Source of the DNA: Telopea speciosissima
Lineage: Eukaryota; Streptophyta; Magnoliopsida; Proteales; Proteaceae
Assembly: GCF_018873765.1 (NCBI RefSeq)
Contig: NC_057919.1
Span: 70,550,984 to 70,614,983, forward strand
DNA: 64,000 nucleotides
Direction: 5' to 3'
The position numbers and the translations under genes were made by a program. Positions within the stretch are counted from its first letter, which is position 1. Each line of letters opens with the position of its first letter. The notes beneath the pieces are model-generated. The model did no database searches and was not told the origin of the DNA. It saw nothing but the letters and a program-made list of their open reading frames with translations. Shown here in pieces: positions 29,107-54,300 of the stretch.

Positions 29107-30224
29107 CGGCACATGGGCCTGCCACTAAGGGGGGTAGGGTGGTCATTGCACCTACCCCCATGTGCCTAGGCACAACATGCGCTGCGGCACAGAGAACAGT
29201 GCCCCTATATATAATTTTTGAATGAATCATCTTACTGATGGACAATTCCTTATCTTCCTCCACCACCACCAGTAAAGAGTAGCGTAGCATGCCATTATTC
29301 ATTACCAATCGACGCGATCGCCGAGTATGGAGATGTGGTCTATGCAGCTGGATGCCAAAACGTGAAATGTCCAAATAATGATGGGATCGATCAAGCAGTT
29401 CAAGTCTCGAAGCAAGCCAATGCAACCTTCATCTTTGTAGGACTGGACCTTTCAATTGAGGCCTAGAGTTTGGATCGAAATGATCTCAACTTCCCTGGCT
29501 TTCAGAAGTCACTCATCACCCAAATCAGTGAAGCTTCCACCAAGCCAGTCATTGTCGTCATTTTCTTTGCAGGAGGCATCGATATCTCCTTCTTGCAACA
29601 AGACCCCAAGGTTCGAGCCATCGTTTGGGCCGGCTACCCTAGGGCCGAGGGTGGTCGTGCCATCGCAGATGTGATTTTTGGCAAGTACAACCCAGGTACT
29701 GAGAATCTACTTAAATCATGAATAAAATACATTGGGACTTAGGTAGAACTCATCCTTAAAAGTTAAGGGTCAAGAAGGTGTCATACGCCCTTATACACAC
29801 AGATAGAATCCCGTCCTATTCAATTCCATCTGTAAGTGTAAATGTTAAAGGCTTATAAGAATCTGATCTAGATTCATCCAGTATATATTCATAAGCCTTC
29901 ACATCAAACCATTCACATCCTATGTGAGATAATTGCTTTTACGTGGAACCCAAAACTATTTATTGAATCAAAACAACTATACGGATGGTGCTTTGCAGCT
30001 GGTCGTCTTCCGATCACATGGTACCCGGCAAGCTATGTAGATCAATTACCGATTACATCAATATCGCTGAGGCCAATCTCTGAGTCTAATTACCCAGGAA
30101 GGACATACAAGTTTTATAATGGATCAACCATCTATCCCTTCGGTTACGGATTGAGCTACACCACCTTTAAGTATGCCATTAAGTCTGCAACAAATCCGGT
30201 TATGTTGAACCTAGGGCAGTTCCA
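28362..30224 (+). pseudogene. GH3 beta-D-xylosidase pseudogene, copy B
   Basis: A partial duplicate of copy A without a promoter or exons 1-3. It starts in the right arm of the intron 3 hairpin and keeps exon 4 (28472-28572), exon 5 (28680-29027), exon 6 (29273-29695) and the first part of exon 7 (29999-about 30224). After that, exon 7 is joined to 3'-flanking sequence with loss of about 550 bases. Exon lengths 4-6 equal those of A and C. Exon 4 codes VANCDSVEV where A and C have VADCDS, so the predicted nucleophile Asp is Asn. Exon 6 has an in-frame TAG at 29464-29466 (Glu in A and C). It shares the intron 5 insertion with A but lacks the intron 6 MITE. It cannot make an enzyme. Confidence 0.93.
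29107..29205. mobile_element. insertion in intron 5 of copy B
   Basis: Counterpart of 22648-22744: CACATGGGCCTGCCACTAAG to GCTGCGGCACAGAGAACAG, between TATATA runs. Its presence in A and B but not C places the insertion before the A/B duplication and after the split from C. Confidence 0.6.
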
Positions 30225-35005: not shown

Positions 35006-38000
35006 ATGCATCCAAGCAAAAACATGGTGGCACCACTTCAAGTCGGATTTGGGATACTTTTGCTTCTGTCAACTTATAATTACTTTGGCGTAAAAGCCGA
35101 ATTCATTGTCTGCGACAGTACTACATTTGAGCAGATGAAAATTGAAATGGGCAGCTTACGGTTTTGTGACAAGAGCCTGGCTTACGAGGTGCGAGCCAAG
35201 GACTTGATAGATCGAATGACACTGGAAGAGAAAGTGGCACAGCTTGGAGACAAAGCCATGGGAGTGCAGCGCCTAAACCTACCAGGATACGAGTGGTGGT
35301 CTGAGGCACTCCATGGTGTCTCCGATGTCGGTCCGGGCACTCGTTTCGATCAAACCGTGCCTTCTGCTACTAGCTTTCCTACTGTTATCCTCACCACCTC
35401 TTCTTTCAATGAGACTTTGTGGAAAACCATAGGCGAGGTTGGTCATAATTAATTCATCTTTCTTTCTTTCAATTCCTTAGTTTTAATTTTCTTAATTTCT
35501 CTTTCGATCAGGTGGTGTCGGATGAAGCAAGAGCTATGTACAATCTAGGATTGGCTGGATTGACGTTTTGGAGCCCAACCATTAACGTTGTTAGAGATCC
35601 AAGGTGGGGAAGAATTACAGAAACACCTGGGGAAGATCCCTTTGTGGTTGGGCGTTATGCCGTCAATTACGTAAGAGGTCTCCAAGATGTGAAAGGCTTT
35701 GAGAAAACTAGGAATCCAAACTCAAGGCCTCTCAAGGTTGCTGCATGTTGCAAACATTTTGCAGCTTATGATGTTGATAATTGGAAGGGTGTTGATCGCT
35801 ACCATTTCGATGCCAAGGTAATTAATTAATTATATATACTTACAAGAAATTACAAGATGTCACTGCAAGTACCTATAAGTTTTCACATCGGGCTACTCAC
35901 ATCTGATATGAGATTATTATTTCCACGCCATAAAACCCCAACAAGTTATTACAGTAGCAATAAACACAAATAGTAATTAATTAATGATGATCTTGTGAAT
36001 TAATTATTAGGTGACGGAGAGGGATATGGTGGAGACATTTCTTGAACCATTTAGGATGTGCGTAAAGGACGGAGACGTAGCCAGTGTAATGTGTTCATAT
36101 AATCGAGTCAATGGCATACCAGTCTGTGCTGATCCTAAGCTCTTGAATGGGACAATCAGGCAGCACTGGAATCTCAATGGGTGAGTTCGGATCTCCTCAT
36201 TCTCTCCCAACTTCCATCACATTATTCTCAACTGCTACTACTACTACTACTACTACTACGACTAACTTGACTCTTAAATATATACATAAATAGTTACATT
36301 GTCGCTGATTGCGATTCCATTGATGTTATGGTTAATGGCCATAAATTCCTCGGCGATACACCAGTTGAGGCTGTTGGGCAAGCACTCAAAGCTGGTAAGT
36401 TCTTTGATACATAAACCACTCCACCCTATCTTTTTCTCTCACATAATTAAGTTGACAACGCTTAATTTTAATTATTATTATTATTATTATTATTATTACT
36501 AGGAATGGATCTGGATTGCGGGAAATACTATCCAAATTATGCGACAGCAGCAGTGAGGCAAGGGAAGGTGATGGAGTCTGAAATCGATGCGTCTCTGAAG
36601 AACCTTTTCATTGTTCTAATGAGGCTTGGATGGTTCGATGGTAACCCTGGTGGGTACTCAGGACTTGGGAAGAACGACATATGTTCTCTGGCACATCTTG
36701 AGCTCTCGGCCGAGGCGGCAAGGCAGGGCATTGTCTTGCTCAAGAATGATAACAACACTTTGCCATTGACCATTGGAATGGGAAAGCCCAAGTTTGCGGT
36801 TATTGGACCCCATGCAAATGCCACTAAAGCAATGATTGGTAACTATGCAAGTAAGTTTTTCCAGTTTCTATAATTACAAATCTATATATAATTTCTGAAT
36901 GAATCTTCTTACTGATGGATAATTCCTAATTATCCTCCACCACCACCACAGTAAAGAATGGTGTAACATGCCATTATTCAATACCAATGGACACAATCGC
37001 CGAGTATGGAGATGTGGTCTATGCAGCTGGATGCCAAGGCGTGAAATGCCCAAATGGTGATGGGATCGGTGAAGCAGTCCAGGTCTCAAAGCAAGCCGAT
37101 GCAACCTTCATCTTTGTTGGACTGGACCTTTCAATTGAGGCGGAGAGCTTGGATCGAAATGATCTCAACTTCCCTGGCTCTCAGAAGGAACTCATCACCC
37201 AAATCAGTGAAGCTGCCACCAAGCCAGTCATTGTCGTCATTTTCTCTGCAGGAGGCATCGATATCTCCTTCTTGCAGCAAGACCCCAAGGTTCAAGCCAT
37301 AGTTTGGACCGGTTACCCCGGTGCCGAGGGTGGCCGTGCCATCGCAGATGTCATTTTTGGCAAGTACAATCCAGGTGAGAATCTAGTTAAATTATGAAGA
37401 TTTCATGAAGAAAATACCGTTGGAACTTGCTTAGAACTCATTCTTAAAAGTTAGCCATTATGGAGAAGCTAGTCACATCCAATGCGAGATAATTGAATCC
37501 AACACTATTTATAGAATCAAAACAACTATAACCTTATAAATGTTGTGGAATTTTGGATTAGTTGATTTTCTTATTAGATTCTAGATTAGAATTTAAGAAT
37601 GACCTGGATGTTGCTCTACAGCTGGTCGTCTTCCGATTACATGGTACCCGGTAAACTATGTAGATCAATTACCGATGACATCAATGCCACTGCGACCAGT
37701 CCCTGAGTCTAATTACCCAGGAAGGACATACAAGTTCTATAATGGATCAACCATTTATCCCTTCGGTTACGGATTGAGCTACACCACCTTTAGGTATGCC
37801 ATTAAGTCTACAACAAATCCGGTCACGTTGAACCTGGCACAGTTCCAACAATGCAAGCAACTGCAATTCTTGGACGGTAGGAAGACAGATTGCCCAGCCG
37901 TCCTAGTGGATGAGACACGTTGCACTCGAGTAATGACCATAAAAGCAGTGGTGACCAACAGTGGAAAAAGAGATGGAGCACACGTTGTGTTCGTATACTC

Positions 38001-38238
38001 CGTCCCACCATCAGGCATTGTCGGAGCACCCATCAAGAGACTTGTTGGATTCAAGCGAGTGTTTGTAGTAGCAGGAAAGTCACAGGTAGTTTCGTTCAAG
38101 TTAAATGGTTGTCATGATTTCAGCATTGTCACCGATGATGCTTATGAGTTATTGCCGTCTGGACAACATACAATAATTGTGGGAGATGGAAAAGAAGCAG
38201 TTTCAGCTCAAATTACTGTTGGTTTTACCCACAATTAG
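35006..38238 (+). CDS. GH3 beta-D-xylosidase (BXL family), copy C
   Basis: Secreted GH3 enzyme predicted to act on xylan-derived oligosaccharides in the cell wall. Seven exons: 35006-35437, 35512-35817, 36011-36180, 36294-36394, 36503-36850, 36952-37374 and 37622-38238. The sum is 2397 bases, 798 residues. Exons 2-7 have exactly the lengths of copy A. A signal peptide lies in residues 1-31 ([18 protein letters not shown]). Key blocks are [52 protein letters not shown] (nucleophile Asp), [25 protein letters not shown] and a C-terminal Fn3-like domain with [20 protein letters not shown]. Introns 3, 5 and 6 lack the insertions seen in copy A, so this copy shows the ancestral intron state. It looks fully functional. 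Beta-xylosidase versus alpha-arabinofuranosidase preference cannot be told by eye. Confidence 0.93.
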
Positions 38239-38748: not shown

Positions 38749-39537
38749 TGATAAGTTATAAAATCCCCATCCAACCATGAAGCGCCACGTGGAGGTACTG
38801 AGGCTGAACCCGAGGACCGAGCCGAGCTGACGGATGCCGTGCCTAATCGGTCAGCCGATGTGAGACCATCACTGTAATTCTCCATATGGTCGAGCACCCT
38901 GGCCGAGCATTGGGTCTACTGAGCACTGAGTCGTGCCTACCAGGGTCGGCCATACAAACGAGCGTCTCTAAGGGCGAGCACCGAGCCGAGCACCAGTGCG
39001 GTCCGAGAATGGCCCAGCTGAACCCGATACTTAGGGCACCGCACACTCGCCACCCGTGTCGAGCATGGGGCAGAGCACCAAGGGCCCGGCCATCCGAGGC
39101 CGAGGCCTCACCAAAAGCAGTAACACCAACTCCCCCGAAATCACGGAGCCACATCAGCACGCCCCGACAATCACAGGATACGAATCGGGTCACGATCCTG
39201 TAATAGAATCAAGTCACACTCTCACAAGGACTCTTACCTCTTTAGGAGTCCGACTCCGAGAATAACTCTCCATTCTGCTCCGTACGGAAGAGCCCTGCTA
39301 ATAGAGGACTCTTACCATACAAGGACTCATGTCGCCTCATCTCACCCTATAAATACCCAGGTATAGAGCTCAAACGCTCATCTCACTTTTCACTAAGTTG
39401 TTACGTTGTTGCACTGGAGACCGGACTTGAGCATCGGAGAGTCCTTGGCCGGAGCCACACCAACTCTTTTGTGCTCACTCAATTTTTACAGGCTCATCCA
39501 TGGGCGAACCGGCCGATGGAGGTTTTCACATGTAATA
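38749..39537 (+). repeat. 5' LTR of the Tat element
   Basis: Starts TGATAAGTTATAAAATCCCC and ends near GGTTTTCACATG. It is collinear with 49453-50219. It is followed at once by TTTGGCATCGTCTGTGGGAA, a sequence typical of the leader of plant Gypsy elements. A TATAAATACC word near 39350 fits an LTR promoter. Confidence 0.9.
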
Positions 39538-41726: not shown

Positions 41727-44700
41727 GTGCCCATATACACCATCCTTGGAGGACCCGGGCAAGAATCCACCCGGAAAGCCAAGGCTAATGCTAGGTTCGT
41801 TGGAGTCGTAGAAATGCCGAGCAAAAGGCCGAAGTCTGAGGCGACTATCTCCTTCTCCGAAGCTGATCTCGAAGGTATAAGTTTTCCTCACGATGATGCT
41901 TTGGTGGTACAGGTGGAAATCGCGAAGAGACCCGTTCACCGGGTATTGTTCGACACGGGGGCATCAGTGGATCTTATGTCGCTCGATGCATATCGATAAT
42001 TTAGCTTCGGCGATGATGCACTCAAGCCTAAAGGAACCTCCCTCCATTGATTCTTGGGGGCAGCCGCCATGATCAAAGGGTCGATAAACCTACTGGTTAC
42101 GTTCGGGCAAGCCCATGTCAAGCGACGATCCAAGTCAGGTTCATGGTGGTACGGTCGGTGGTGGCCTTCAATGCTATACTTAGTCGCCCATCACTCACCG
42201 CCCTCCAAGCCATCATCTCGTTGATGCATTTAAAGATGAAGTTCCCCACGGAGAACGGGATTAGAGAAATCCGAGGCGACTAAAAGAAGGCCCGAGAGTG
42301 CTACGCTACATTCGTCAAGAAGAACAAGGGAAATGTTTGAGGAATGGCTATGTGCGTTGAGCACCTCCCTGAGGACCAGCGGGATGAGCTCACTGAGAGG
42401 CGCAGAAGGCCTGTAGAAGACCTCATCCCATTCTCCCTCAGCGATGAAGATCCAATGAAGACAGTACAGCTCGGATCATTGCTGAGTGAAGAACAAAGAA
42501 ATCGGCTAAAAAACTTCTTGAAGACGAATGCCGACGTCTTTGCTTGGTCAGCTCTCGACATGCCCGGTATACCAAGGCACATAGCTGAGCACCGACTCCA
42601 CGAGGATCCGAGCCAAAAGCCGGTCCAACAGAAGAGAAGAAATTATGCTCTCGATCGACAGGCGGCAATCAAAGAAGAGGTGGAGAAACTCCAACGGTCG
42701 GGGTTCATCCGAGAAGAAAAATTCCCCACTTGGCTGGCGAACGTCGTCATGGTTCCCAAGACGAATGGGAAGTGGAGAATGTGTGCCGATTATCCTGACC
42801 TCAACAAAGCATGCCCGAAAGACGAGTATCCGCTACCCCGGATCAATCTGTTGATAGACGCCACTGCTGGGCCAGAGATGCTGAGCTTCATGGATGCGTA
42901 CTCCGATTATAATCAAATCCTGATGCACGATGAGGATGAGTCCTACATGGCTTTCTAAATCGACCAAGAAAATTTTTGCTACAAGGTCATGCCGTTCGGA
43001 TTGAAGAAAGTCGGAACGACGTATCAACGGTTGGTAAACCAAATATTCCGTGAGCAAATTGGTAGAAACATGGAAGTCTATGTGGATGACATGTTAGTTA
43101 AGAGCTTGAAGGCCGAGCATCACTTGGCTGACTTAGAAGGGGCCTTCGGCGTGTTGAGGAAGAACCAAATAAAGCTGAACCCGGCCAAGTGCGCTTTCGG
43201 TGTAACCTCGGAAAAATTCCTTGGCTTCATGGTCTCCATACGAGGTATCGAGGTCAACCCAGCAAAAACCAAGGCAATTTAAGAGATGAGCCCTCCAAGG
43301 ACGATCCGAGAAGTATAAAGGTTGAACAAAAAAGTCACAGATTTAGCATGGTTCATGTCGAGATCGGGCGACAAATGTCTCCCATTCTTCAAAGCTTTGA
43401 AGAACATTCAAAGCTCGAAGGATTTTAAGTGGACCGACGAATGCCAGCAAGCTTTTAAAGACTTGAAGTACTTAGAGAATCCACCTCTCCTCTCCCGACC
43501 CGAGCCTAAAGAAGAGCTCCAAATTTACCTCGTCGCGACCCCGATCGCGATCAGTGCGATACTAATCAGGGAGGAGGGCCGAACACAAAAGCCCATATAC
43601 TGTATTAGCCATGTTCTCGTTGATGGCGAGACTAGATACTCCAAGTTTAAGAAGGTAGCATTTACCCTTATCACGGCCGCAAGAAAGTTGAGGCCATATT
43701 TTCAAGCTCATCCAATCACGGTGTTAATCGATCAACCCCTCAAGAAGATACTGCACAAGCCAGATGTGTCAGGTCAGTTGATCGCATGGGCAGTGGAGTT
43801 GAGTGAGTACGATATAAGATACCGCCCGAGAACAGCGATAAAGGGACATGCTCTAGCAGATTTCATCGCGGAATGCACGATACCCGACCCCGAGGTGCGG
43901 GATATCGAATCAACGGGAGAGATCGAGGCTGAGCTCGAAGTCGAATAGTCATGGGTCATGAACATTGACGGCTCGAGCAATTTCGGTGGGTGTGGAGCGG
44001 GCTTGATGTTGGTTAGCCCCGAGGGGTTTCGCATCTAATACGCCCTAAGATTCAAGTTCCCAGCCTCCAACAACAACGTCGAATATGAAGCCCTCCTAGC
44101 CGGACTCCAAGTCAGCAAAGCTATAGGGGTCAACCGACTAAAAGTATGGAGTGACTCATAACTTGTGGTCAACCAAATCAACGATGAGTACGAGGCCAAG
44201 GATGAAAGGATGGTAGCATACCTGAGCCGAGCCCGAGCACTGATCTTCGAGCTTGAGCACTTTGAGATGGTCTGAGTATCGAGACAAGAGAATGTTGTGG
44301 CTGACTCCCTCTCACGGCTAGCCGAAGCCAACCTCCCAAATCTGAGCCAATCGATCTACATTAAAATTCTAGAAAGACCATCCCTACAAGAAGAAAGTGT
44401 CAAGCACATTGAAGAAGACGGGCAGACCTGGATGAACCCAATCGTGAATTATCTGGAAAACGATCAACTCCTGGAGAATTGAGATGAAGCAAGGAAAGTC
44501 AAGATCCGAGCCACGAAGTACACGATGATCGATGGCGTATTGTACAAGAGAGCTATCTCGGCTCCCCTCCTCCGATGCCTCGGGCCGAAAGGTGCCGAGT
44601 ACACTATGGCGGAAGTACACGAAGGCATATGCGGGAGCCACATGGGTGGCCGAGCATTGGCATACAAGATACTTCGGCAAGGATTCTACTGGCCGAGAAT

Positions 44701-45570
44701 GCAAGAAGAGGCTATAAAATATGTAAAGACATGCGAGAAATGTCAACTATTCGCACCCGTTCCAGGCCGACCCCTGACGAAGCTAACCCCAATACTGAGC
44801 CCAATACCGTTTGCCATATGGGGAATGGATATTCTCGGGGATTTTACCCCGGCATCCAAAAATTGGAAGTATTTGGTGGTTGCTATCGACTACTTCACCG
44901 AGTGGGTCGAAGCCGAGCCCCTGGCCACCATTACCGAGAAGAACATGGAGAAGCTCTTCCAAGATAAAGTTATCTACCGGTTCGGGCTACCCAAAGTGCT
45001 CATCACAGACAATGACGCACAATTCAACAACCCGAGCTTTCAAGAGTTCTGCAAGCACTTTTACATAGATTTTCTCCCGGTGGCGGTAGCTCATCCACAA
45101 GCTAATGGACAAGTAGAGGTGTCGAACCAAACATTGCTAGCGGGGATCAAGAGAAGGTTGGATGAGGCCAAAGGAAGGTGGGTGGAAGAGCTCCCGAGCG
45201 TCCTTTGGGCCTATCGAACGATAGTGAGAACAACCACGGGAGAAAGCCCATTTCAGCTAGCATACGGAACTGAAGCCCTCAGCCCCGTGGAAGTCAAGGC
45301 CTCGTCGTATCGAGTGCTCAACTTTAACGAGAAGACATATGAAGATGGACTCAGGGCGAATCTCGACTTCCTCGATGAAGTAAGAAAGAATGCGTTGCTT
45401 CGGAACACGGCTTACCAACAAAAGACGACAAAGTACTACGACTCAAAGGTAAAGAAAAGGCACTTTCGCCAAGGAGACCTCGTCCTCAGAAAATTAGCGC
45501 AAAATTGGGAAGGTCCATATATAGTCTCCAAGCAAATTTGCCCAGGGACGTATCGCTTGTAGACTCCGGG
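41727..45570 (+). pseudogene. pol remains of the Tat element (protease, RT, RNase H x2, integrase)
   Basis: Order seen: aspartic protease VLFDTGASVDLMS (about 41945); reverse transcriptase with MCADYPDLNKACPKDEYPLP (about 42780) and VYVDDMLVKS (about 43080); first RNase H with LQIYLVATPIAISAIL (about 43520); second, archaeal-type RNase H with VMNIDGSSNFGGCGAGLML (about 43960); integrase with a zinc-binding segment (GGRALAYKILRQGFYWPRM, CEKCQLF, about 44640-44750), catalytic-core words WGMDILGDF and ITDNDAQF, and HPQANGQVEVSN (about 45100). The integrase block is the longest intact piece. The fossil as a whole is broken in many places. Confidence 0.9.
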
Positions 45571-45779
45571 GGGCAAAAAGGTACCGAGGCCATGGAACTC
45601 GGAGAATTTGAAGAAAATTTTCCAATAAAATGATAAAGTGTTCTGTTCGGCTCGGCTCGATTTAGGCGTACTTGTCTTCACCTATGTTCTCGGCTTCGGC
45701 CATTGCTTTTATATTCAGTTCAGCTTGGATGTTTACTTCAAGTTTTGAAATTCAATAAATTGAAGTTCCTCTCCGTCCT

Positions 45780-46200
45780 TGAGTTTGTTTCGAGTCTAAA
45801 ACATACCGAGTCATAAGACCAGTCCTCATAGACTGGCTGACGTGCTCCTCTTCATTCTTGAGTTTATTTTGAGTCTAAAACACACAAAGTCATAAGACCA
45901 ATCCTCATAGATTGGCCGACGCCGAAGACCGACCCTCATAGGTCGGCAACAAAGTCATAAGACCAGTCCTCATAGACTGGCCGACGTCGAAGATCAACCC
46001 TCATAGGTCGACAACACAAAGTCATGAGACCAGTTCTCATAGACTGGCCAACGCCAAAGATCGACCCTCAAAGTTCAGCAACAAAGTCGTAAGACCAATC
46101 CTCATACATTGACCGACAACAAAGACCGACCCTCATAGGTCGGCCATAAGGTCATAAGACCAGCCCTCATAGGCTGGTTGACTCGCAAGATTATTCATGA
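45780..46200 (+). repeat. tandem array of short hairpins in the 3' region of the Tat element
   Basis: About ten copies of a small inverted repeat, spaced 20-80 bases, each with a six-base loop CTCATA (or a near variant). Perfect stems are CCAGTC/GACTGG (45819-45836 and 45963-45980), CCAATC/GATTGG (45898-45915), CCGACC/GGTCGG (45929-45946 and another near 46125-46142) and CCAGCC/GGCTGG (near 46160-46177). Others have wobble or one mismatch. Flanking words AAAGTCATAAGA and GCCGACG are also repeated. Confidence 0.85.
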
Positions 46201-46734
46201 TTAGCCATCTCAACGCCAAGCAGACTAGCGCCTGAGGTATAATAAAAAATTACCCAATGCATTGAGCTTGGCCGAGTGGACGGCTCGGAGCAATAACCCC
46301 ATGCTAACCCCGACTGAGCCGAGTTAGTAACTAATGCTAGAAAGCATGCTAAGGCATTAAGCCCGGCAGAGAGCTCGGCCTCGGCCCAGCATCTGAAGAC
46401 GTTCCCGAGCACCCTGGCCAAGTCGACGGATAGGGCTAAACCAAGCAAAAATTGCTAAGGCATGAGGCTCGGCTGAGCACTCGGACTAAGTACTCGGCCT
46501 CGGTGCTCGGATATAGGAGCAGCGTTCACGAAATAACAGAAAGAAAAGGCTGAATGCAAACACTTAAATGAGAAAAAGTCACTTTTCATTAATCTAAGGC
46601 CGATGGCTCAGCGCGGTACAAAAAAGCCTTTCGGCTCGGTGCATAAAATAATAAAAAAAAAAGAGGAAAAAGATAATTGTTCAAACCCCGAGCATGGGGA
46701 CATGTACATCAAAAATAGAAAGAGATAAAAAGTT

Positions 46735-49022
46735 TTAAGATTCGGGGGCGTCGATGGGATCCTTGGCGGCTAGGTCCTCGGTAGCATCCTCGACGGCGTC
46801 CTTGGAAGCTGATGTCCGCGGGTACTTGGCAAAGTTGGACGGCTCTCCCCGGGGGGTGACCTCAGTCGGGACGGCTTGCTCAACCTCCACCTGATCCTCC
46901 TCGCCCAACTCCTCTACCACGGTGGCCACGTCCTCTTCAGACCCAGAGAAGTTAAGGTGGGGGAAAGTAGCCTTGAATTCAGCCAGGGTGTCAGCTCGGC
47001 CCTCATCGTACCCCTCCGTGTACAAAGGTTTCTTCAAGCCATGGCACATTTCGTTAAACTCCTCCGACCGGAGGTACGCGTCCACCACCTCGGCTCGGGT
47101 ACCCACCAGGTCAGCCTCGGCCTTCTTCTTGGATTGCTCGAGCTGGGTCTTCAGGGCCTGCATCTCCTTCTTATGCTAGGACCTGAGAGAGCTCGCCTCG
47201 TCTTGAGTGGCTTGGAGGTCAGACTCGGCCTTCTTAAGCTTCCCCTCGACCTCTCGACGTGCCTGGATGGCCGAGCTGGCCTCCTTCTCGGCCTTCTTGC
47301 ACTGAGCCTTTAGGGAAGCATTATCATTGATAGCTCGCTCGAGCCAGAGGGTCGCCTCGATTGCCTTGGCGAAACCCTGAAATAACGAGCCAAACGTGAG
47401 TACAGCTGAGCTTGAAAAGAAATATCACTCGACAAGAAATGAGAAGAGACTCACCATCGCAAAATCCTAGAAGAGGGTAGAGAGGAGCTCGGGGTCGGTC
47501 AGCTCCTCCAGCATGGCCTTGTCCTTGGGAAGCCGACCCGCATCGAGTCACTCAGTGGTCAGAGCCGAGTCCCCCAGAAAAGCCGCCAGTGGGGTCGGAT
47601 CAGGACGTTGCTGGCTGAGGCCCTCCCCAAAGCCAGCTAAGCAATCCCCTGGCTCGAGGCGACCCTAGGGGGATTACCGCCCGAGGTGTTGAAGGAGAGC
47701 TTTTGTCGCTTAATCTCCCTCGGGGGGGTCCATTCGCCTTGGTCCCTCTTGGGCTTGTCCCTCTTTGTGGGGCTGAGGTCGCCCTTATTCTTCTCAGCCT
47801 TAAGGCCGACCACTGTCTCCTTAGAGCTCGGCAGGACAGCCTTGCCCTTTTCGGTCTTGGAGATCCCGGCCTTTGACTTGCCCTTATCGGCAGCCTTCCT
47901 CCTCCTCTCTTTAGAAAGCTCGACCTAAAGCCGAGCCGAGTCCATCGGGGGGACGTGGCTGACCACTGCAGGAACAGAAAAGCAGAGTCAGAAAACAATG
48001 AGAAAAATCACAAGGAACGAGCTCGGCTCGGATTTCCTACCCGGGGTCAGGTTCAACGCCCGCAGGAACTCCTCTTCCTGGAGTTGCAGGACATCGAATG
48101 GCGGGTACTAACGAATTAGGTCATACGAGGTCTGCTCGTACTTGTTGAGGGGTAACACCCTATTGACAGAACTCAACTTTATCTCCTTTCACTCGGTTCT
48201 GAAGGGATAGTTTGGGATGGAGGCAAAAAAGAACCGAGGCTTCCAATGCTTGTTGGAGGTCGACACTCAGTCCAAGTACTTGTAGGTGTTCAACGCCGAA
48301 CCCTTTTGTGCTCAACGAGTGAAATAATACCACCCCTTCTCAGTGGATTTCTTCATGTACCAGAGCCGAGAGAAGAGGTTCACGCTCGCGGCTCGGTCCA
48401 TCTGGCGGAAGAAGACGTGGAAGCCATACATCAGCAACCACGCGTTCGGCGTCAGCTGACCAGGGGATAGGTGGAAGCGATCCAAAATTTGGTCCACCAG
48501 CCAGAGCACTGGGAACCTAAAGGCATATTTAAACGCGATCTCATACAGGGCCACCTCGCCGGGCCGAATGAAGCAAGCCGTCTCCCCAGGGTTTGGGGCT
48601 CGAAGCTTGATGTCCTCCGGGATGGCATAAGTGTCCCTCAGGGGTTGGAGGCCAGCCTCGATGACCGTGCTTTCAACTGTGCCAACACTCCCCTCCTCAG
48701 GCTCAAGGATGTCAGTTGTAGAGTCGCCCGAGTCAACCCCATCTTCGAAAGATTTCTCTTCGTCTAACTCTTCATCGTCTGTTGGGGACGATCCCGAGCT
48801 CTCGGCTCAATCTTTGGCAATAGGCTGAGCCTCATGGCCAGACTCCTGGGGTAGGGGGACTTCGGCAGCATTGCCCTGGCGGGGCTCCATCGCGGCGGGC
48901 TCGTCTGAGATCGAGCCCAGCAAGTCTATGAAGGGTGAGTGGGTGGAGAGCTCTCGGCTCGGACTCATAATTTCACCCACCCTGGAGAGCACTTCACCCT
49001 CGTGACCACTACCAACTGACAT
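46735..49022 (-). pseudogene. reverse-strand extra ORF of the Tat element (Transposase_28-like)
   Basis: A series of open blocks on the minus strand between integrase and the 3' LTR. The block at 48312-48554 contains FRFPVLWLVDQILDRFHLSP and GQLTPNAWLLMYGFHVFFRQ, which I recognise as the plant domain named putative gypsy-type transposon (Pfam Transposase_28). The blocks at 47163-46735 and just upstream are rich in E, K, Q and A, coiled-coil-like (ALKTQLEQSKKKAEADLVGT). Extra antisense ORFs downstream of pol are known for the Tat lineage. The stretches separating the blocks have intron-like GT and polypyrimidine-AG edges. It is a fossil, and function is unknown. Confidence 0.7.
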
Positions 49023-49452
49023 GTCGAGGAGAGAGGACTTACTGGTTGACGAAGCATGAAGAAGAGATAAACACGAGACGAGCTAAAAGGCTTGAGGACA
49101 CCGAGCACCTGAAGAGCCAAAGATTCTGAGTTAGCCGAGCGCTCCAAAGATTTGAAACAGTGAGAAATAAGGGAAGAGCCTTCGCCTATTTATAACCACC
49201 GAGCGGCCTAGATCCAACGACTGAGGAGAGTTCAAAAAAAGAGATCTAATGGTTCAGATCTTGCAACGATTCGAATTCCCGAGCCATTATTGCAGTAGGT
49301 GATGTGGCACTGACACCTAACTGCCAGAATCCGTACAACGTCAAATCCCCGCAGATGAAGAGCTCGGGCTCGGGCTCGGGATGAAATAAATGGCACGCCG
49401 AAAGGCTGTACTCATCAAGGACGAGCCGAGCCTTGATGAGTAGGGGGGTCTG

Positions 49453-50219
49453 TGATAAGTCATAAAATCCCCATCCAACCATGAAGCGCCACGTGGAGGT
49501 ACTGAGGCTGAACCCGAGGACCGAGCCGAGCTGACGGATGTTGTGCCAAATCGGTCAGCCGGTGCGAGACCATCACCAAAATTTTCCATACGGCCGAGCA
49601 TTGGATCTACCGAGCACTGAGTCGTGCCTACCAGGGTCGGCCATACAGATGAGCGTCTCTAAGGGCGAGCATCGAGCCGAGCACCAATGCGGTCCGAGAA
49701 CGGCCCAGCTAAACCCAGCACTTAGGGCACCGCACACTCGCCACCCTTGCCGAGCACCAAGGGCCCGGCCATCAGAGGCCGAGGCCTCACCAGAAGCAAT
49801 AACACCAACTCCCCCGAAATCACGAAGCCAAATCAGCACGCCCCGACAATCACGGGATACGAATCGAGTCGCGATCCCGCAATTGAATCAAGTCACACTC
49901 TCACAAGGACTCTTACCTCTTTAGGAGTCTGACTCCAAGAATAACTCTCCATTCCGCTCCATACGGAAGAGCCCTGCCAATAGAGGACTCTTACCATACA
50001 AGGACTCATGCAACCGCCGCATCTCACCCTATAAATACCCAAGTATAGAGCTCAAACGCTCATCTCACTTTTCACTAAGCTGTTACGCTGTAGCACTGGA
50101 CACCTGACTTGAGCGTCGGAGAGTCCTTGGCCGGAGCCACATTGGCTCTTTTGCGCTCACTCGGTTTTTGCAGGCTCAACCGTGGGCGGACCGGGCGACG
50201 GAGGTTTTCACATGCAACA
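49453..50219 (+). repeat. 3' LTR of the Tat element
   Basis: Starts TGATAAGTCATAAAATCCCC right after a purine tract (TAGGGGGGTC, polypurine-tract-like) and ends CACATGCAACA. It is followed by ATCCG, matching four of five bases of the left target copy. Confidence 0.92.
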
Positions 50220-51376: not shown

Positions 51377-54300
51377 ATGACGCAGGGAACGCCGACGCAG
51401 GCGTATGGAGAGCCGTCGTACTGGGACAACAGGTATGCCCAGGACACTGGGCCGTTTGATTGGTACCAGAAGTACCCATCCTTAGCGCCGTTGTTACATA
51501 TGTACGTTCGTCGAGATCACCGGATCCTAGTCGTCGGCTGCGGTAACGCAGGTGTGCTTATTCATAACCCATTGTTTCCTCTTCTTCTGTAACTCAAACT
51601 ATCGGAGCTTCCCCCAATAATCAACTATTATGTTTCAGACTTGTGTTCCTTTGGGTTCTTTTTATTGGCATTAGTTGTATGTGCAACAAAACTGGTTAAG
51701 TCGAAGCGATTGCATAAGCATAACTACCCCCCTACCAATTCCGTCCTCGTTTCGTTTTAGGGTTTTTCTTGCATTTTTCCTTTCATAGATTTAATATGAT
51801 GGACTGCCCATCAATACTTGATGTTGCACCTGTTTTTTATATCATTGCTGAAAAAACGTTTGGTTTTACAATTATTGAATGCTTTCCCAGTTCATGTATT
51901 ATTATAAGGTGCAATTCATAAAATCTTTCGGTGAAATTAATTTTCAACTAGTTTCATAAAGAAAAATTAAAATAACCTGTTAGCCCTGTTCTCACTTCTT
52001 CCCAAAATAGAGTGACCCAGATGCTAAGTGTGGACTCTAGAAAGATGGGTTTGAATCAAAAGTTTTGAAAATGAATCTAACTTAAAAAATATATATATAT
52101 CGGATAGACTTTTTTAGAACCACACTAAGGGGTGGTTAAGATTTACTCCAGAGCATCCTTTGTTGTTCTCTTGGTCTTATCCATAAGATTAGAGACTCTA
52201 AAGAGGATACTCCAGAGCATCCTAGCCGTTCAGAACAGAATGAATGGCATAGGCTCTGGTAGTTTTATTTGTAGATTATAGCAAGAGTACAATTAGGTAA
52301 GCTGTGATACAAAAAGGAAAAATTCTATTCAAATTAGATTTCTTAACATAAAAGGAGGATTACAGTATCTTAAACATTGAAACAAATAAGGCCTAATTAT
52401 ATGCTTGATTTCCTCCTTCATTATCTGCTTGATTCCTTCCCCGGTTATCTGTTTGATTTCCTCCTCCATTCAGCTGTCTTGTATAAGGAATAGAAACTCT
52501 ATCATTTTTACTCCCCCTCAAGTGAAGGTGGGAATGATAGTGAACAATAAGCTTGGACCAAAGAGATAGAAATGAAACGCGAGCAAGAGTTTTGGTTAAA
52601 ATATCAGCAAGCTGAAGCTGAGAGGGAAGGGATCGAGTAATAAGCGAGCCAGCAACCACTTTTTCACGAACAAAATGGTAATCCAGTTCAACATGCTTAG
52701 TTTGAGCATGAAAAATAAGTTGGTAGTTAAGAAATGTGCACTCAAATGATCACAAAACAGAATAGGAGCATGAGGAAGAGGCACAAGGCCTGACCAAGTC
52801 CCAAAGTAAATAAGTAATCCAAGTTAATTCAGCGGCACTGATAGTCAAGGAACTGTATTCAGCCTCATCACTAGAATGGGCGACAATGGGTTGTTTCTTA
52901 GCACTCCACAAAATGAGATTAGATCCAAGAAACACACAATAACCAGAAGTAGAGCGCTGAGTATCAGAACACCTGGTCCAGTCTGCATCACTAAATATAT
53001 AAATTTAAGGTACTTTGCGCCAAAATTCGAAGAACAAAATCAACTGTTCCTTTAACATAACGCAAAATGTGTAAGACTCCCACATTACTGCAATAATAAT
53101 TTGCATCGACCAAAAAATCCAAGGCATCTAAATGCAAGTGATAATGCTGTGGTAAAGGTGTCACAACCTGCTTACACTCTGTCATAGAGGCCCAATCAAG
53201 AATATCCCAGGCATAATTGGATTGAGAGAGAAAGAGACCATCACTAGTGCAGACAGCATGCAAGCCCAAGAAGTAGTGAAGATTGTCCAAGCCATAAAGA
53301 GCAACCTTAGACCCAAGGATATGAATGAGGTAGATATCATCCGAGAATTCGAACCGGTCATCATCCACGTATAGCAGTGTTAAACAAAATACCATGAGGT
53401 GAATGAAGAACAAAAAAAGGATGATTCTGCCTGGCTGCAATAAAAACCCAAGCCAAGAAGAAATAAAGAGATGATCAAACCATGCACGAGGTGCTTGTTT
53501 CAAACCAGATAAGGCTTGTTTCAAAAGACAAACATGGTTAGGAAACTATCGATCAATGAACCCTCGAGGTTGTTCCGTATATAGTATCTCCTTAAGAATT
53601 CCATTAAGAAAACCTTTTTTAACATATAGCTGACGAATACTCCTATCATTAACGACTACAACAGATAGAACGGGACAAATTGTTGCTGGCTTAATAACAT
53701 GGGTAAAAGTCTCATCAAAGTCTATTCCTTTCACCTGAGTTTACCTTTAGCAACCAAACAGGCCTTGAACCATTCAACTGAGTTATCAGGCTTAAGTTTG
53801 TTCTTGTACACCCAATGAGAACTGACAATTTTCATATAAGGGGTACGAGGAACAAGAATCCAAGTTTGATTATTAGCCAAAGCTTGAAATTCTGTATGCA
53901 TTGCATTAACCCAATGTGGAGATTTAAGGGCTGACCGCAAAGACTTAGGTTTGGCAATATCTAAAGCAGGAGCAGCCAATGCTTATTTTAAAATTGGGTT
54001 TAACTACACCATGTTGTGCACAACTAACCAGATGGCGATTAGGTGCAATAATGTTGCCAAGAGATACATCACACAATGAAGAATCTCTACAAAGCTGAGT
54101 AGAAATCATAGATACACTTGTCTGAAGTGAGACCTTGGATGAAACTGGTGAAGAAACATTGTGGATATCAGATGAAGGCACAACAATAAAAATATCAAGA
54201 GAAGTATCCGAACTAGAAGACAAAACTGGACTGCCTGAAATATTACGATCAATAGGAATGAGATCAGTTGAAGTAATGGGTTGGAAATGATGTAGTACTA

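Follow-up and report, generated by a model that had tools for sequence, protein, structure and literature searches.

Paired stem change in a tandem hairpin array of a Retand-like retrotransposon from Telopea speciosissima

The 64,000-nucleotide (nt) stretch of Telopea speciosissima DNA analysed here, referred to as the window (contig NC_057919.1, positions 70,550,984 to 70,614,983, forward strand), contains a Ty3-gypsy long terminal repeat (LTR) retrotransposon of the Tat/Retand-like type. Between its integrase (IN) and a convergent antisense open reading frame (ORF) lies an array of ten short hairpins whose arms, across many genomic copies of the element, change in a paired fashion around a conserved loop. 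We describe the element and its array, the pattern of stem change, and what this pattern may mean.

The hairpin array and its host element

The features of the host element, in window coordinates, are as follows.

38749-39535, plus strand: 5' LTR, aligned to the 3' LTR
44525-45562, plus strand: integrase part of pol (PF00665 rve, E 1.1e-11; PF17921, E 5e-11)
45819-45836, plus strand: hairpin 1, type A, CCAGTC-CTCATA-GACTGG
45898-45915, plus strand: hairpin 2, type A, CCAATC-CTCATA-GATTGG
45929-45946, plus strand: hairpin 3, type B, CCGACC-CTCATA-GGTCGG
45963-45980, plus strand: hairpin 4, type A, CCAGTC-CTCATA-GACTGG
45994-46011, plus strand: hairpin 5, type B, one A.C pair
46030-46047, plus strand: hairpin 6, type A, one T.G wobble
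46061-46078, plus strand: hairpin 7, type B, decayed, loop CTCAAA
46095-46112, plus strand: hairpin 8, type A, decayed
46126-46143, plus strand: hairpin 9, type B, CCGACC-CTCATA-GGTCGG
46160-46177, plus strand: hairpin 10, type A, CCAGCC-CTCATA-GGCTGG
46735-47163, minus strand: final open stretch (142 amino acids) of the convergent antisense coding region, without a Pfam match when taken alone
48315-48806, minus strand: antisense stretch with a Transposase_28 (TRP28) domain (PF04195, E 7.3e-07, 29.8 bits against a cut-off of 26.2)
49453-50217, plus strand: 3' LTR, aligned to the 5' LTR

The two LTRs are identical at a fraction of 0.919 over 762 aligned positions, with 49 transitions and 13 transversions. 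The element appears Retand-like on the strength of its antisense TRP28 (PF04195) ORF between pol and the 3' LTR, a Retand trait, and of its region lengths. The LTRs (787 and 765 bp), the internal region (about 9.9 kb) and the distance from pol to the 3' LTR (about 3.9 kb, from the end of the integrase stretch at 45562 to 49453) all fall inside the Retand ranges given for the elements covered in the available part of PMC11963269 (315-1,194 bp, 7,380-12,869 bp and 2,933-6,566 bp, respectively), which are typical rather than defining. An additional RNase H (aRH) between RH and INT is a further Tat/Retand trait in the portion of PMC6317226 consulted; for the RNase H of the host element, the RT_RNaseH domains of one ORF were inspected. 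The RT_1 match of the element is partial and below the cut-off.

The array spans 45819-46177, each hairpin being 18 nt long (6+6+6), with loops starting at 45825, 45904, 45935, 45969, 46000, 46036, 46067, 46101, 46132 and 46166. A preliminary description of this DNA, made from the letters alone, had placed around ten hairpins after the integrase of a Tat-type element, and had listed four stem spellings and a wobble version; ten hairpins are indeed present, all four spellings occur among them, and hairpin 6 has one wobble. The stems are perfectly Watson-Crick in six of the ten (hairpins 1, 2, 3, 4, 9 and 10), and the loop is CTCATA in all except hairpin 7. Two unit types, A (CCAGTC-like) and B (CCGACC/GGTCGG), alternate with a period of about 65 nt.

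The array holds seven perfect hairpins of at least 5 bp, against 1.4 in dinucleotide shuffles (z 4.9). Its predicted fold is likewise stronger than that of shuffles, with z -6.9 for the sense and -7.6 for the antisense strand (-7.1 and -6.6 in separate runs), and z runs from -1.0 to +2.5 in control folds of the antisense ORF and of the IN end. The antisense fold is nominally more stable than the sense fold (-155.7 against -113.0 kcal/mol), the antisense shuffles being lower likewise. Rfam release 15 gave no match up to E 1 in 45500-46800, and viral contigs gave no match to the hairpin pattern. Between the array and the antisense ORF, the segment 46240-46626 contains five short hairpins where shuffles have 1.5 (z 2.9); its fold has z -3.6 in the sense and -2.2 in the antisense orientation.

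Paired change in the stems across genomic copies

In the 823-Mb genome searched for copies, the pattern AAGACCNRNCCTCATAGNYNGG has 964 and 1075 exact matches, 2039 in all, and its reversed control has none; a query with the array itself returned 816 first-look candidates, of which 40 were scored. We analysed 109 distinct copies, a non-random sample made up of 39 best-scoring places from the array query, 34 further copies from an exact 34-nt match to the IN end, 35 pattern matches that were the first listed places and all lie on contig C1, and one other. The scored place C9:28532788 is not among them, and L001-L008 (matches to an initial, different pattern) and L118 (the same place as L037) were left out. 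A unit profile gave 1210 listed matches, of which the 1103 above the aligner's inclusion limit were aligned, and eight without a clean loop or 5' arm were removed. An integrase match lies upstream in 105 of the 109 copies, at a median of 214 nt before the first loop, and a match to the antisense ORF lies downstream in 76, many of the others having short flanks. All 39 copies picked by the exact 34-nt match to the IN end have an array of at least five good units.

Of the 1086 units in these copies, 344 are type A and 470 type B. The other 272 belong to Ai, an A variant that occurs at 53 loci, L083, L093 and L115 among them, and whose 3' arm is longer by one base: T in 226 units, A in 44 and C in two. 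The Ai arm GACCTGG can pair either with CCGGTC, bulging the T, or with CCAGTC, bulging the C. Across all units, 885 have the loop CTCATA, and 492 have six Watson-Crick pairs if bulges are allowed. CC/GG predominates at the outer pairs and C/G at the innermost; the middle three pairs vary.

There the arms vary together. After setting aside 73 of the 1086 units that have other letters in the middle triplet, we find matching arm triplets in 760 of the remaining 1013 units, where independent arms would give 234.8, and each of the eight purine-purine-pyrimidine (R-R-Y) triplets is found matched (in 85, 10, 101, 15, 21, 338, 188 and 2 units). Fully paired middle triplets among unique units exceed the maximum of 2000 shuffles in every type: 187 of 299 for A (shuffle mean 63.7, maximum 85), 112 of 182 for Ai (97.9 and 111) and 280 of 398 for B (233.0 and 250). 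If each column is instead set against one that lies one to three places from its partner, the paired share, 0.85-0.89 for the true partners, drops to at most 0.53.

The coupling is specific to the true partners also when relatedness is taken into account by means of a short and noisy tree of the 22 non-stem columns: partner pairs 5, 3 and 4 rank first to third of 561 column pairs (z 21.8, 17.1 and 14.0; the next is 6.4), and in type A alone the three middle partner pairs again take the first three places, of 465. Between homologous units in 46 array pairs that share the same unit order, differences that affect both sides of a pair are compensated in 28 of 35 cases at pair 4, 21 of 22 at pair 5 and six of eight at pair 3; the corresponding figures for the outer pairs are nine of 18 (pair 1) and none of three (pair 2). 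The two-sided stem change first noticed in the window thus holds as a partner-specific coupling across many genomic copies.

In L093, L090 and L098, which belong to one subfamily, one late unit each carries transversions matched on both arms (for example CATGTC / GACATG in L093), and these units have a changed loop, CACATA or CAAATA.

Conservation of the loop and distant relatives

With flanks anchored on the integrase match, conservation was measured in two subfamilies of 37 and 21 loci. The loop reaches a mean of 0.964 and 0.970 and the AAGA flank 0.979 and 0.991; values are lower in the final 180 nt of IN (0.885 and 0.919) and in the spacer that precedes the array (0.830 and 0.911). Base composition is not the cause of this difference, because A and T columns alone still give lower values for IN (0.912 and 0.946) and spacer (0.845 and 0.923). 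The profile used to find units includes the loop and so favours intact loops; judging by spacing, few units were skipped.

We also looked at eight loci picked from the Transposase_28 matches of the genome by score and open-frame length, blind to arrays. Five of the eight stretches reach an integrase end, with 54.8-70.1% amino-acid identity to the window integrase, and the remaining three have no integrase match. In all five, hairpin repeats of another sequence follow the integrase. One of them, L119 (family 2), has 13.7 copies of a 33-nt unit with the hairpins GAGGC-TTCRT-GCCT and AGGC-GAYAT-GCC; the others have units of the type CCTCA-CCCG-TGAGG, four to five in L120, three to four in L121 and two each in L122 and L126. 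First-look candidates for the L119 type number 1016 genome-wide and those for the L121 type 71, and 40 were scored in each. Between families, then, the sequence differs, and the position and the hairpin form recur, a recurrence suggesting that it is the fold itself that counts for the element.

The L121 type (family 3) gave 166 units in 26 of 27 loci, accepted with up to four mismatches of 14, so that a few may be chance; five of the 27 loci (L133, L135, L136, L137 and L141) are in another setting, with no visible pol end. Here the stem is the conserved part, with a perfect CCTCA/TGAGG in 87 of the 166 units. A matched CCTTA/TAAGG form accounts for five of 70 exact pattern matches genome-wide and probably represents one lineage. 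Hairpins of at least 5 bp are in clear excess over shuffles in the spacers of L132 (nine against 1.1) and L139 (five against 0.9), in weak excess in L142 (three against 1.0) and not in excess in L121 (one against 0.4). Nor is there an excess at this length in L119 (one against 2.5), where the stems are 4 bp; its fold has z -7.4 in the sense and -3.8 in the antisense orientation. Upstream of the family 3 repeats, L122, L132, L134 and L143 have a single longer hairpin, CCCGACC/GGTCGGG or CCCGATC/GATCGGG, with a variable loop and, in L132, one mismatched pair.

Possible functions and alternative explanations

On balance we consider it just probable, from sequence comparison, that the array is a structured RNA module of the Retand-like retrotransposon whose stem-loops are favoured by selection when paired. 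Each stem-loop would consist of the AAGA flank, mostly fixed outer pairs (CC/GG), three middle pairs and the fixed CTCATA loop, and in the middle any R-R-Y triplet would be tolerated provided that the arms match. In an active element, copies with pairing stems would be favoured, and changes in the middle of the stem would accumulate as paired changes. The pattern of paired change is observed directly; it is the selection behind it that we infer. Middle pairs that are free but mutually bound, combined with a loop, flank and outer pairs that are fixed except where decayed, have the look of a stem-loop that is read by a protein, and the asymmetry of the loop and of the AAGA flank suggests that a single strand is read rather than double-stranded DNA.

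Several observations weigh against this interpretation. In the non-stem-column tree only pair 5 stands out in type B and only pair 3 in type Ai, and permuting partners places the true arrangement at rank 1 of 720 for A, 105 for Ai and 45 for B, which is decisive for A only; the excess of Ai over its shuffle maximum is a single unit. An R-scape-like null, which scatters changes randomly over a tree made from all 34 columns, leaves no column pair significant, the three best pairs of type A having E values of 0.67, 0.82 and 3.7. This null is weakened because its tree is partly built from the tested columns, but given its outcome we make no strict claim of phylogenetic covariation. One-sided differences between homologous units outnumber compensated ones (87 to 6 at pair 3, 88 to 28 at pair 4 and 58 to 21 at pair 5), an excess that fits neutral decay of dead copies, which dilutes the signal too. 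Arriving at eight matched triplets takes seven paired steps or more, but unit exchange could have spread a few compensations. Nor do wobbles point consistently to one strand: among non-Watson-Crick middle pairs under the best pairing, G.T against A.C counts are 57 to 51 in A, 23 to 25 in Ai and 77 to 25 in B. In family 3, finally, the stems hardly covary, and the loops vary more than the stems (CCCG in 63, TCCG in 20, TCCA in 16 and CCCA in 14 of 166 units).

The preliminary description had raised selection on an RNA or single-stranded DNA fold around an invariant CTCATA loop, with packaging, dimerisation or RNA stability as possible purposes. Selection on the fold gains from the partner-specific coupling seen in many copies, and the covariation analysis it called for places the three middle partner pairs first to third with the non-stem-column tree; with the all-34-column tree none is significant. 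The loop is constant in nine of the ten window hairpins and conserved in the family. It varies in distant family 3, so the fixed CTCATA loop is particular to the window family, and a fixed loop does not hold as a general rule for related elements.

The strongest alternative, which we nevertheless regard as unlikely, is shared descent only, in which two to three chance ancestral hairpin types were duplicated and mixed by unequal exchange, so that the matched arms reflect inherited blocks overlaid by independent C-to-T decay at methylated sites. The all-34-column null and the excess of one-sided differences are in its favour, as is pair 1 of type B, where 17 double changes are seen and about 15 are expected under independence. 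However, columns on the same arm are less coupled than partners are (z 6.4 for columns 12-13, against 14-22), which indicates that triplets are not inherited as one block. The occurrence of all eight triplets in matched form, the conservation of loop and flank above that of the IN end, and the retention of the array in every copy chosen by its IN end also argue against descent alone.

Hairpins favour template switching, and the arms could therefore match without any function if, during reverse transcription or replication, switching within a hairpin copied one arm onto the other. Such pairing-dependent copying should hit all pairs and flip loops, and neither is seen. In sense orientation the unit pattern occurs 616 times with a CTCATA loop and never with the inverted loop TATGAG. 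The outer pairs are frequently altered (pair 1 has 139 and 126 changes, pair 2 has 91 and 89), yet they are barely coupled (z 1.9 and 1.3). Units with a matched transversion, moreover, contribute just nine pair entries. This makes the mechanism distinctly unlikely. The missing inverted loops and the weak coupling of the outer pairs also tell against inverted-repeat gene conversion, which had been offered initially as an alternative to selection.

A double-stranded DNA operator array, in which a dimer of the TRP28 protein of the antisense ORF would bind every inverted repeat as a dyad site, is very unlikely: a TRP28 domain is present in the window, hairpin repeats lie near the TRP28 matches in all five stretches that reach the pol end, and the TRP28 protein is predicted to bind DNA (PMC11963269, available part), yet both the loop and the AAGA flank lack symmetry and are strongly conserved, and if a dimer accepted any R-R-Y half-site, the halves of one unit would have no need to match. 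MicroRNA-like processing was set aside, since stems of 6 bp are too short for it.

If the array is indeed an RNA module under selection for pairing, its likeliest job would be multivalent binding of an element protein, for example Gag, to the genomic RNA, which would mark the RNA of each family for recognition, packaging or dimerisation. Such a role in recognition or packaging is suggested by the place, repetition and family specificity of the units. The next likeliest job would be to protect or insulate the 3' ends of the two convergent transcripts. A broader proposal, possible although doubtful, is that in Retand-type elements generally a family-specific hairpin array between pol and the antisense ORF, made of many repeats of the family's own stem-loop, serves as an RNA identity tag read by the element's own Gag or antisense-ORF protein, the hypervariable tandem repeats being the trace of a fast-changing RNA-protein code.

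Tandem arrays at this place are known, as the preliminary description had noted. In the available portions of the cited work, Tat-lineage 3' tandem arrays are common in plants and seed satellite DNA (PMC11963269, PMC7004042), and about half of recently active Retand elements carry them, their origin and function remaining unknown (PMC11963269). As far as those portions and that of PMC6317226 go, the window array resembles the published Tat/Retand arrays in lineage type, in its place between pol and the 3' LTR, in the antisense TRP28 ORF and in its family-specific units; it differs in that the published arrays are treated as tandem or hypervariable repeats, whereas the window units are hairpins whose arms change together around a conserved loop. 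The main text of PMC11963269 contains none of the words hairpin, stem and secondary structure, the word hairpin occurs once in PMC3290532, and titles and abstract openings, with subscription papers mostly outside the search, describe neither hairpin arrays nor paired stem change for Retand or Ogre elements. The paired-stem constraint is therefore without a description in the literature searched.

A further likeness is to the cis-acting structures of Ty1 and Ty3 genomic RNA, which are structured retrotransposon RNAs that act in packaging, dimerisation and initiation. Compared by description in the part of PMC4974528 available, those structures are not presented as tandem arrays, and the Ty1 packaging sequences lie in the 5' 580 nt; localisation and packaging of Ty3 RNA are said there to depend on untranslated region or POL sequences. 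If the 3' tandem arrays of Tat-lineage elements are selected as hairpins, a large group of plant retrotransposons would possess cis-acting RNA elements open to testing, and selection would explain why arrays are retained during sequence turnover.

Two other features of the window lie outside the host element. A direct repeat (30000-30224 and 37623-37847; 91% identical, 7.6 kb apart) adjoins ORFs at 36505-38238, which we take to resemble a glycosyl hydrolase gene, and perhaps reflects a tandem gene duplication. On the minus strand, the ORF at 52991-53524 is presumably similar to a remnant of a Ty1-copia reverse transcriptase.
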